From assembly GCF_001019715.1 (NCBI RefSeq), contig NZ_BBXJ01000001.1, positions 434,001 to 498,000 of the forward strand: DNA of 64,000 bases. The letters run 5' to 3'. The stretch is from Rodentibacter caecimuris. GTDB lineage: Bacteria; Pseudomonadota; Gammaproteobacteria; Enterobacterales; Pasteurellaceae. The notes under the pieces are model-generated. The model was not told the DNA's origin. It saw only the letters and a program-made list of their open reading frames with translations, and did not search any database. The translations under genes were made by a program, and so were the position numbers. This document shows positions 34,902 through 55,822 of the stretch, piece by piece (the first letter of the stretch is position 1; each line of letters begins with the position of its first letter).

Positions 34902-34971
34902 GAAAATTTTTCTATTTTTTATTTAATTGATGGAATAGTCACCAATTTTCTAAATATAGGGATAAAAACTA

Positions 34972-34999
34972 AAAGGTAGAGATCTAAATCTCTACCCTT
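34972..34999 (-). terminator. Terminator after pal
   Basis: Stem GGTAGAGAT (34975-34983) with ATCTCTACC (34988-34996), four-base loop, T-rich on the minus strand. It ends the tol-pal transcript. Confidence 0.85.
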
Positions 35000-35021
35000 A
35001 GAAAATCAAACTTATCTAAAA

Positions 35022-35489
35022 TTAGTATGCTAATACAGCACGACGGTTTTTAGAATATGCCGCTTCGTCATGACCTAATACTGCAGGTTTTTCTTCACCA
35101 TAAGAAACTGTTGAAACTTTGCTACCTTCCACACCTTTACCGGCTAGGAAAGATTTAACAGCGTCCGCACGACGTTGACCTAAAGCAATATTGTACTCAG
35201 GTGTACCACGCTCATCAGTATTACCTTCAACAATCACTTTTGATGCCGGAGTTGCATTTAAGTATGCAGCATGCGCATCTAAGATTTGAACGTACTCACC
35301 TTCGATATTATATTTGTCAAAACCAAAATATACTGTGTTGTAACGTTGTTGAAGATCTTCAACAGAATAACCACCGAAAGTTTGACCGTTTGTTGCACCG
35401 TTGCCAGCTGCATCGTTGCTAGAAGAACTACATGCTGCTAATGCTGCTACAGAACCTGCAACTAATAATGATTTAATAAATTTGTTCAT
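35022..35489 (-). CDS. pal: Peptidoglycan-associated lipoprotein Pal (P6-like)
   Basis: Outer membrane lipoprotein that binds peptidoglycan and TolB. The lipobox ends at Cys20 (AALAAC). The OmpA-like domain reads [25 protein letters not shown], then [26 protein letters not shown], with the peptidoglycan-contacting Asp and Arg. The 155-residue sequence is very close to Haemophilus P6, a major surface antigen. It is the last gene of the tol-pal operon. Confidence 0.97.
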
Positions 35490-53483: not shown

Positions 53484-54134
53484 ATGCCCGATTCTCCAGA
53501 AATTCCTTATCACAATCAATTAAAAAATCGTTTTCGCGGTTATTTTCCTGTCATCATTGATGTGGAAACCGCAGGTTTTGACGCCAAAAAAGATGCCTTA
53601 TTAGAACTAGCGGCAATTACGTTAAAAATGGATGAAAACGGCTATTTACAGCCGGATCAAAAATGCCATTTTCATATTGAGCCTTTTACAGGCGCAAATA
53701 TCAATCCGGAATCATTAAAATTTAACGGCATCGATATTCATAACCCGTTGCGCTGTGCCGTATCAGAGTTAGATGCAATTACCGGACTGTTTCAAATGGT
53801 ACGCCGAGGGCAAAAAGAGGCTGAATGCCAGCGTTCCATCATCGTAGCCCATAATGCGACCTTTGATCAAAGTTTCGTGATGGCAGCGGCAGAACGCACC
53901 GGTGTAAAACGCAATCCGTTTCACCCTTTCGGCATGTTTGATACGGCAAGTCTGGCAGGCTTAATGTTTGGTCAAACAGTATTAGTAAAAGCCTGTCAAG
54001 CCGCCAATATTCCTTTTGATGGAAAACAAGCCCATTCAGCCCTCTATGATACGGAACGTACTGCTGAATTATTTTGCTATATGGTAAATCATTTAAAAAA
54101 TTTAGGTGGTTTTCCGCATATTGCCGCACAATGA
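53484..54134 (+). CDS. rnt: Ribonuclease T
   Basis: DEDD-family 3'-5' exonuclease that trims the 3' ends of tRNAs and other stable RNAs. The catalytic acids are Asp and Glu in [10 protein letters not shown] (residues 23 and 25), the Asp in HNATFDQSF, and His and Asp in [13 protein letters not shown]. The 216 residues match RNase T. It starts just after the gloA terminator, with ribosome binding site AAGGAT. Confidence 0.96.
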
Positions 54135-54237
54135 AAAACGGAATAAAAAATAACCGCACTTTATTTTTAAAAATTAGGTTGCAATTTTTCTCATTTTACA
54201 GTAGCTTAGACAGCAATTCTTATTTGGAGATTTAAAA

Positions 54238-54282
54238 ATGAACCTAATCCGTCGCCATCATCGCCACCATTTAACTGAATAA
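54238..54282 (+). CDS. His/Arg-rich leader peptide of the YuiF attenuator
   Basis: A 14-residue peptide, MNLIRRHHRHHLTE, with ribosome binding site GGAGA eight bases upstream. It has four His codons (54256-54261 and 54265-54270) and three Arg codons close together, the mark of a control peptide in ribosome-mediated attenuation. The stop (54280-54282) lies 18 bases before the first strong hairpin. The reading is direct; the sensing of His-tRNA is inferred from E. coli hisL, which has seven His codons in a row. Confidence 0.88.
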   Translation: MNLIRRHHRHHLTE

Positions 54283-54381
54283 TCTTTCAGGTTTTTGGTG
54301 TGCTTGGAAGATTTCTTCCGAGCAGACAGGATAATAAAAAATCTTACCCCTCGGAAGGCAACTTTCGAGGGGTTATTTTAT
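54264..54381 (+). promoter_or_regulatory. Histidine-type transcription attenuator
   Basis: Mutually exclusive hairpins can be drawn. C:D is 54301-54310 with 54315-54324, ten pairs with one G-U. D:E, the antiterminator, is CTTCCGAG (54315-54322) with CTCGGAAG (54350-54357), eight perfect pairs. E:F, the terminator, is ACCCCTCG (54346-54353) with CGAGGGGT (54366-54373), extended three pairs inward and followed by a T-rich tract. Upstream, CACCA (54265-54269, on the His codons) can pair with TGGTG (54296-54300), and 54283-54288 can pair with 54306-54311. This is the logic of the enterobacterial his leader. Confidence 0.85.
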
Positions 54382-54469
54382 GATTAGAGGAGTGCAAACC
54401 ATCAATATTACACATTCAATAAAATTATAACCAATTCAATTTACACATTAATTTATAAGGAAAAACACA

Positions 54470-55822
54470 ATGTTATCAAACCCCGTTGTTATCTCAATTA
54501 TCGTTTTGCTGACGCTCAGCTTACTGCGTATTAATGTCATTATCGCGCTAGTCATTGCCGCACTTACAGCCGGTTTATGCGGTGGTCTTGGTTTAACTAA
54601 AACCATTGAAACCTTCACCGGTGGACTGGGAGGCGGAGCGGAAGTCGCAATGAACTATGCCATGCTCGGCGCTTTTGCTATCGCGATTTCTAAATCCGGT
54701 ATTACTGATTTAATCGCCTATAAAATCATCACAAAAATAAATAGAACACCGACAAGTAACAATCTTGCATGGTTAAAATATTTAATTTTCGGCATTTTAG
54801 TCTTATTTTCTATTTCATCCCAGAACCTACTACCCGTTCACATTGCCTTTATCCCAATTGTCGTGCCGCCATTGCTTTCAATCTTTAATCGCTTAAACAT
54901 TGACCGCCGTGCTATTGCTTGCGTGCTCACTTTCGGTTTAACCGCCACTTATATGTTGCTACCGGTGGGATTCGGTAAAATTTTTATTGAAAGTATCTTG
55001 GTAAAAAATATCAATCAAGCAGGGGCAAATCTTGGCTTGCAAACGGATATCGCCCAAGTTTCTCTTGCAATGTTACTACCGGTAATCGGTATGATCTTAG
55101 GTTTATTAACCGCCGTATTTATCACCTATCGCAAACCTCGTACATACAACGTTCTTGTTGAAGAACCAACAACAAAAGAAATTGAAGCACATATTGCCAA
55201 TATTAAACCAAAACAAATTACAGCAAGCCTGATTGCAATTTTTGCAACTTTTGCAACGCAACTTGTTACCAGTTCGACAATTATTGGCGGTTTAGTCGGT
55301 TTAACGGTCTTTGCCCTATTCGGTATTTTCAAACTCAAAGAAAGTAATGATATTTTCCAACAAGGCTTGCGTTTAATGGCTATGATCGGCTTTGTGATGA
55401 TTGCCGCCTCAGGTTTTGCAAATGTAATTAATGCCACCACTGGCGTAACGGATTTGGTGCAGAGCCTCAGTAATGGCGCAATTCAAAGTAAGGGCTTAGC
55501 CGCGTTTCTGATGTTGATTGTCGGTTTATTAATCACGATGGGAATCGGCTCGTCTTTCTCTACCGTACCAATTATAACCTCAATTTACGTACCGCTTTGT
55601 CTCTCCTTTGGTTTCTCACCACTGGCAACCGTATCAATAGTGGGCGTAGCTGCGGCACTTGGTGACGCAGGTTCTCCGGCCTCCGACTCCACCTTAGGGC
55701 CGACCTCAGGATTGAATATAGATGGTAAACATGATCACATTTGGGATTCTGTTGTGCCAACCTTCATTCACTACAATATTCCATTATTGGTATTCGGTTG
55801 GATTGCAGCAATGTATCTTTAA
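54470..55822 (+). CDS. YuiF-type transporter, probable histidine transporter
   Basis: A 450-residue integral membrane protein with about 11-12 segments. It belongs to the family often labelled Na+/H+ antiporter (NhaC-like, YuiF group). Conserved features include GGLGGGAEVAMNYAMLGAFA near residue 51 and GDAGSPASDSTLGPTSGLN near 404. The His-rich leader and attenuator directly upstream, with nothing between, point to amino acid transport, most likely histidine import; to my memory, comparative genomics has proposed the same for YuiF. Expression should rise when charged His-tRNA is low. The transport role is inferred. Confidence 0.8.
   Translation: MLSNPVVISIIVLLTLSLLRINVIIALVIAALTAGLCGGLGLTKTIETFTGGLGGGAEVAMNYAMLGAFAIAISKSGITDLIAYKIITKINRTPTSNNLAWLKYLIFGILVLFSISSQNLLPVHIAFIPIVVPPLLSIFNRLNIDRRAIACVLTFGLTATYMLLPVGFGKIFIESILVKNINQAGANLGLQTDIAQVSLAMLLPVIGMILGLLTAVFITYRKPRTYNVLVEEPTTKEIEAHIANIKPKQITASLIAIFATFATQLVTSSTIIGGLVGLTVFALFGIFKLKESNDIFQQGLRLMAMIGFVMIAASGFANVINATTGVTDLVQSLSNGAIQSKGLAAFLMLIVGLLITMGIGSSFSTVPIITSIYVPLCLSFGFSPLATVSIVGVAAALGDAGSPASDSTLGPTSGLNIDGKHDHIWDSVVPTFIHYNIPLLVFGWIAAMYL

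Follow-up and report, generated by a model that had tools for sequence, protein, structure and literature searches.

A histidine attenuator of the His_leader family before a probable histidine permease gene in Rodentibacter caecimuris, and its relatives in Pasteurellaceae

Positions 54238-54381 of the window (the whole analysed stretch of 64,000 nucleotides, C1:434001-498000 of the Rodentibacter caecimuris genome) very probably form a histidine attenuator, a member of the Rfam family His_leader, with the adjacent downstream gene, for a probable histidine permease, under its control in this rodent-associated bacterium. Both the attenuation mechanism and the RNA family have long been known, and the element is a familiar type of switch in front of a less common target. 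An earlier sequence-only reading had proposed a complete ribosome-mediated His attenuator before a transporter at this place, to be scanned with the Rfam model of the his leader. We found that RF00514 matches 54258-54380 with 78 bits against a gathering score of 49, over model positions 1-126 of 126 (E-value 1.2e-10, with the whole window scanned against 4227 families). The proposal is further supported by mutually exclusive pairings that are conserved with compensating changes, by His codons kept in relatives, and by folding of the RNA around a stalled ribosome. With regard to membership in RF00514, the score, a His-codon leader peptide lying over the first pairing strand, and conserved exclusive pairings were all found. 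The title of the family implies a position before the his biosynthesis operon, and here the next gene is a transporter; because RF00514 is defined by model score and not by target, this mismatch affects the sense of the title only.

The leader element and its conservation

The features of the locus are collected in Table 1. The 14-residue leader peptide MNLIRRHHRHHLTE was recovered as the sequence-only reading had given it, with four His codons at 54256, 54259, 54265, and 54268, and three Arg codons at 54250, 54253, and 54262; a block resembling GGAG precedes most leaders among relatives. The ten-pair C:D hairpin and the eight perfect pairs of the D:E antiterminator that had been described were likewise present, D:E with a further U-G pair. 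Of the proposed E:F terminator of eight pairs with a T tract, the terminator and the tract stood and the count did not: 12 pairs were counted, directly followed by a T tract, TATTTTAT (TATTTTA), which is modest. Weaker pairings over the His codons had also been described, and these correspond to A:B, the A strand of which (54265-54269) overlaps the codons for His10 and His11. The fold of the leader has a z-score of -6.56, and equal stability was reached by none of 200 dinucleotide shuffles.

Table 1. Features of the leader locus, in window positions
Feature	Position	Strand	Details
rnt (RNase T), upstream gene	53484..54134	+	NCBIfam TIGR01298, 346.3 bits, cut-off 246.2
ACCGCACTT, reverse complement of the presumed Pasteurellaceae DNA uptake signal core	54153..54161	+	Pattern count, flank comparison
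TTGCAA-N17-TAGCTT conserved block, possible leader promoter	54179..54207	+	Read by eye from a 13-sequence alignment; weak
GGAG, likely ribosome-binding site of leader peptide	54226..54229	+	Sequence
Leader peptide MNLIRRHHRHHLTE and stop	54238..54282	+	ATG 54238, TAA 54280-54282, 14 codons
A:B pause hairpin	54265..54300	+	CACCA/UGGUG and CUGAA/UUCAG; overlaps last two His codons
B:C, first half of antiterminated form	54283-54291 with 54303-54311	+	9 pairs, two G-U, no mismatch
C:D hairpin	54301-54310 with 54315-54324	+	10 pairs
D:E antiterminator	54315-54322 with 54350-54357	+	8 perfect pairs, one U-G pair besides
E:F intrinsic terminator	54346-54357 with 54362-54373 (element to 54380)	+	12 pairs, one G-U
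AAGGA, likely ribosome-binding site of transporter	54457..54461	+	Sequence
Transporter, 450 aa, probable YuiF-type histidine permease	54470..55822	+	Pfam PF03553 and N-terminal PF13726

The 9-mer ACCGCACTT, which we take to be the motif named as the DNA uptake signal, occurs in 48 copies in the window, both strands counted, and the copy at 54153 marks the upstream border of the module. A promoter consensus scan upstream of the leader gave no match on the + strand. Before the transporter, positions 54451-54469 are on average 92% identical in 11 relatives. The statement that the window holds no his biosynthesis gene is correct for hisD, the sole his gene examined, whose only match lies at C1:2577833. 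Elsewhere in the window, Rfam CpoB_ybgF_thermometer matched 34970-35121 on the - strand with 56.3 bits (cut-off 51).

Every element of the switch, its conservation, and its covariation were established by computation. In an alignment of 32 leaders, of which 18 belong to the transporter, 12 to his genes, and 2 to a DppA-like gene, pairs of the terminator form were standard in 92.3% of cells and those of the antiterminator in 99.4%, with 98.8% for B:C, a figure that rests on 8 scored pairs, and 100% for D:E; at one position of B:C, 19 of the 32 leaders have A-U and 12 have G-C. C:D was paired in 94.0% of cells and E:F in 96.4%, the latter with changes on both sides at four pairs. A:B was paired in 78.1% of cells in its outer helix and 93.1% in its inner helix, the outer helix being weak because one of its pairs is broken in 16 of the 32 leaders. 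For both forms, the pairing percentages, the covariation score, and the numbers of cells changed on both sides (24 in the terminator form, 14 in the antiterminator) lay above all 500 shuffles and the slid controls, in a test that is inflated by related rows and takes its structure from the window row. Pairs with changes on both sides numbered 7 and 2, respectively, values reached by 52 and 117 of the 500 shuffles, with 7 also seen in one slid control version; therefore, the covariation is carried by few pairs. The compensating changes that had been sought by alignment across Pasteurellaceae were thus observed, with C:D, D:E, and E:F all conserved. In 11 close relatives, mean identity is 0.96-0.97 for the hairpins, 0.84 for the leader frame, 0.75 for the rnt-leader spacer, and 0.66 for the DNA after the terminator. 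A peptide with at least three His codons was present in 90 of 91 leaders, as located by a finder that required at least two.

Predicted operation of the switch and the downstream transporter

The E. coli his attenuator forms the same mutually exclusive pairings, and its leader hisL (RF00514) likewise has a His-rich leader peptide, segments A to F, and an intrinsic terminator. The window element differs from it in controlling a transporter instead of hisG, in its D/E core (CTTCCGAG/CTCGGAAG), and in having four His codons broken by Arg, whereas hisL of E. coli K-12 has seven in a row. A second His_leader of the R. caecimuris genome stands before hisG (C1:2576033-2576155, 65 bits to RF00514; hisG was named by eye, with hisD downstream at 2577833). 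The two leaders of this genome are 74.4% identical over 121 aligned positions, and the hisG leader peptide, MTFIRMKHHHHHFPE, has five uninterrupted His codons, in contrast to the four interrupted ones of the window. Because the his operon has its own His_leader in the same genome, synthesis and uptake would answer one signal.

With charged His-tRNA plentiful, the ribosome would reach the leader stop codon and cover B, whereupon C:D would form, E:F would pair, and transcription would stop short of the transporter. With His-tRNA scarce, the ribosome would stall at the His codons and cover A; B:C would then pair, the freed D would pair with E, and in place of termination the transporter would be made. 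It is from this arrangement that we infer an actual response to histidine.

Folding with ribosomes stalled on the His codons, a form of the masked folding that had been suggested with the original reading, was carried out with the RNA under the ribosome masked to 14 nt beyond the first A-site base (an assumed length), and came out in its favor. For stalls at His7, His8, or His10, B:C was the lowest-energy form once C was complete, and B:C (9 pairs) together with D:E (8 pairs) was lowest once E was complete; with D made and E pending (3' ends 54322 or 54326 to 54345), C:D was lowest. A stall at His11 gave B:C early, and C:D won at the end of E. When the ribosome was placed at the stop codon, C:D formed and B:C never did, and naked RNA adopted A:B and C:D. 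In full-length RNA, E:F was part of the lowest form in every scenario (-36.9 kcal/mol for C:D with E:F vs. -18.1 kcal/mol for B:C with D:E), and the switch must therefore be kinetic, that is, dependent on the order of synthesis, as known attenuators are held to be.

The next gene does encode a transporter, as had been claimed, with Pfam scores of 264.2 bits for Na_H_antiporter (PF03553) and 113.6 bits for Na_H_antiport_2 (PF13726). It shares 98% identity with its counterparts in R. genomosp. 2 and R. mrazii. PF13726 has four matches in the R. caecimuris genome, the window protein being the strongest; among 14 control genomes, B. subtilis and E. coli gave matches, with one of the two over the cut-off. 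No NCBIfam model exceeded its cut-off in a scan of the transporter. Na_H_antiporter with an N-terminal PF13726 is presumably the domain make-up of YuiF. The protein is an NhaC-type transporter and probably a YuiF-type histidine permease, the name YuiF being drawn from domain make-up and context, and we infer that histidine is its substrate. A survey of proteobacterial attenuators by Vitreschak et al. in 2004 reportedly predicted yuiF as a histidine transporter on grounds of this kind. YuiF is also listed as a histidine permease under histidine control in Firmicutes, where yuiF is controlled by HisR or a T-box (PMC9413887), in contrast to the ribosome-mediated attenuator of the window.

Distribution of the leader and its other targets

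Among 140 Pasteurellaceae genomes, a match to RF00514 was found in 133 (131 over the cut-off), the transporter in 138, and a match to hisD in 103. The leader lies at most 1 kb upstream of the transporter in 50 genomes, by coordinates among the best 150 leader matches. For 87 further transporters, the upstream DNA was searched with a model built here, R1; the genome with the 138th transporter was left out because that gene starts at a contig edge. This search detected the leader in 7 of the 87 loci (lowest score 79.6 bits; five of the seven also over the Rfam cut-off). Other R1 matches up to E 1 numbered eight, seven of them opposite-strand echoes in leader-bearing loci (at most 32 bits) and the last, at 20.7 bits, in a locus counted as leaderless (L229). 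On the named contigs, Rfam finds the leader in 32 of 40 loci scanned and R1 in the same 32 of 80, some of these 32 rows having been used to build R1. In total, the leader precedes the transporter in 57 of the 137 testable genomes. Relatives that keep the transporter and lose the leader codons or, without compensation, the D:E pairing had been named as the finding that would speak against a switch; in the 80 other genomes the searches detected no module, and no half-decayed leader copy beside the transporter was detected across the family loci searched (137 genomes).

In a tree of 81 transporter proteins, which is unrooted and was made by a quick method with many forks open, the leader label changes four times. 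Two clades carry the leader, one of Haemophilus, Aggregatibacter, and Rodentibacter and another that includes Ursidibacter, Glaesserella, and Bibersteinia; Nicoletella in the latter, and R. heidelbergensis and R. trehalosifermentans in the former, are without it. Which changes would be gains and which losses is our own reading of this unrooted tree. Both borders of the module are preserved in R. heidelbergensis and R. trehalosifermentans, with ACCGCACTTTAA before and ACACATTAA..TATAAGGAAAAACACAATG after it, and the gap between rnt and the transporter is 51 nt and 48 nt, respectively, compared with 335 nt in the window. The whole module is cleanly missing in these two species, which resembles a natural deletion.

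No hisD match was found in 37 of the 140 genomes (20 listed and 17 by subtraction, with hisD standing for the whole operon), and 36 of these have the transporter. The leader stands at the transporter in 26 of these 36, vs. 31 of the 101 testable genomes with hisD, in a comparison of genomes that are not independent. Outside the family, the leader was seen beside the transporter in none of 40 transporter-bearing genomes from other families of the order, as judged by eye from coordinates; 37 of the 40 have a match to RF00514 at E up to 0.001, 29 of them over the cut-off.

Three further observations concern individual loci or records. In the leaderless loci L090, L091, L098, L110, and L125, a shared TAGACAAA-like block followed by AGTAAATT lies between rnt and the transporter, perhaps another promoter or operator. 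A record titled Pseudomonas stutzeri NCTC11607 (L075) carries a transporter that is 91% identical and nests in the Haemophilus-Rodentibacter clade, and is probably a mislabelled member of Pasteurellaceae. A record titled Rodentibacter caecimuris (L125) has a transporter that is only 77% identical and falls outside Rodentibacter, so its label or assembly is doubtful.

The least expected result is a DppA-like target, seen in nine other genomes. Inspection of the listed leaders near neither the transporter nor hisD, plus some weaker matches, placed a leader 20-75 nt before a DppA-like protein in at least nine genomes of six genera (loci L148, L155, L157, L158, L163, L165, L253, L254, and L256), a lower bound because the inspection covered part of the family's leader matches. 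All nine proteins match that of L148 at 60-100% identity, and the SBP_bac_5 domain was scanned in three of them. Two targets scored 799 and 704 bits with the NCBIfam DppA model; because these scores fall below the cut-off of 1005, the targets are called DppA-like and not DppA. In a tree of 11 of 12 rows, L157 being left out, five of six full leader-bearing proteins form a clade (99/97) apart from neighbouring leaderless copies, and L155, the remaining one, stands on a long branch. A single DppA-like match (55%) was found in the window's genome, which has no extra copy of the leader-target type. No report of a His attenuator before a DppA-like gene was found, by title or passage, in a literature search that made little use of peptide terms and took in few subscription papers. 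Two of the nine genomes are without a hisD match, and the reading frame of the gene in L254 looks broken. In another genome without a hisD match (G137, L265), leader, transporter, and DppA-like gene follow one another.

Genera g17 and g29 also have leaders in front of genes identified by eye as hisC-hisB, sometimes with small genes between (loci L146, L147, L150-L154, and L160); with this further His_leader, the his genes of these genera seem to be divided into units that are each attenuated on their own. In two genomes that gave no hisD match (L149 in G086, L161 in G015), a His_leader is retained, and its target lies past the contig end. His_leader-like matches with no plausible same-strand gene nearby downstream occur in L255 (G096) and L257 (G001), and are perhaps relics.

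A tree of 91 leaders, built from 75 different rows and 138 retained columns and leaving many forks unresolved, has a branch (support 81/86) with all 27 transporter leaders of clade a on the same side. A single group of all 42 transporter leaders was rejected (AU p 0.033), as was a single group of all nine DppA leaders (AU p 0.013). Taken alone, the well-supported branches require that the DppA leaders arose twice; within the other transporter leaders, they require no second origin. More than one capture of the leader, by the transporter and by the DppA-like gene, is weakly favored, on modest evidence from short sequences aligned to a model.

Alternative explanations and biological meaning

The hairpins might be read as an ordinary rnt terminator with chance pairings and no translation-dependent switch, given that rnt is the upstream gene, with the same orientation, and that there is an intrinsic terminator. 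That reading is scarcely credible in view of the His codons, the two conserved antiterminator helices with compensating changes, and the full-length Rfam match. Among 80 named loci, moreover, the rnt-transporter gap spans 15-221 nt in 38 leaderless loci with rnt adjoining, in which the module model gave no match, and 261-738 nt in 23 loci with the leader (the 221-nt gap was measured to a match starting at residue 22; in 19 of the 80 there is no rnt within 1500 nt). A plain rnt terminator was thus rejected, by the antiterminator pairing and by these gaps. A different alternative keeps the switch as described and holds that the transporter exchanges ions or carries another solute instead of importing histidine. 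Its Pfam label is indeed Na+/H+ antiporter, and solved-structure relatives were not found except for one background match (E 0.018). We take HI0325 to be the H. influenzae ortholog of the window transporter. HI0325 is annotated as a sodium:proton antiporter (PMC3877243). However, the same module precedes his biosynthesis and DppA-like peptide-binding genes, nearly every genome without a hisD match has the transporter (36 of 37), and a YuiF-type protein imports histidine in S. aureus: SAUSA300_0846, annotated as NhaC-type and YuiF-type, is the main histidine transporter of that species by 3H-histidine uptake (PMC10817146). A substrate other than histidine is hence considered unlikely.

The signal itself might also be broader. 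Three Arg codons stand alongside the four His codons, and Arg9 (54262) sits between His8 and His10, the positions for which folds were computed, so that the switch could sense arginine too, with a shortage of either charged tRNA stalling the ribosome in HHRHH and releasing the gene; on geometric grounds, a ribosome halted at Arg9 would release the gene all the same in the window species. We regard arginine sensing as very unlikely. An Arg codon lies within the His block in 8 of the 27 transporter leaders of clade a and in 4 of the 15 others, and its place is taken by Cys in R. pneumotropicus (HHCHH) and by His in H. influenzae and H. haemolyticus. The clade-a leaders have three to five His codons, with one in-block Arg in 8 and none in 19; since it is absent from 19 of 27, arginine sensing is not a conserved trait. 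Arg codons outside the block mark no special signal because they are common in his-operon leaders also (22 of 26 with at least one). Arginine as a second signal, which the sequence-only reading had considered, was therefore rejected as a conserved function, the Arg codons not being conserved among the 90 leader peptides counted.

For the histidine attenuator as a whole, we tentatively put forward, with a little under even confidence, that in Pasteurellaceae it is a portable module. It would have spread from the his operon by copying, possibly together with its promoter, into the gap between rnt and yuiF in an ancestor of Haemophilus, Aggregatibacter, and Rodentibacter, independently into the yuiF locus of another lineage, and at least two times before a duplicated DppA-like gene. 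The outcome would be a dispersed, protein-free histidine regulon of synthesis, free-histidine uptake, and probably peptide uptake, in which the module outlives the loss of the biosynthetic operon and can be cleanly excised.

The type of switch is well known from histidine synthesis in E. coli, and its spread between genes in this family is of some interest. Natural comparisons are offered by the two Rodentibacter species that are without exactly the switch and keep the flanking genes, as well as by the many genomes without hisD in which uptake remains under the switch. Peptides are suggested as a source of histidine by the DppA-like targets, which are a testable addition to the known targets of the attenuator. 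With leaders at both the his operon and the transporter, synthesis and uptake in one cell would be coupled through a single histidine signal, and no protein regulator would be involved.
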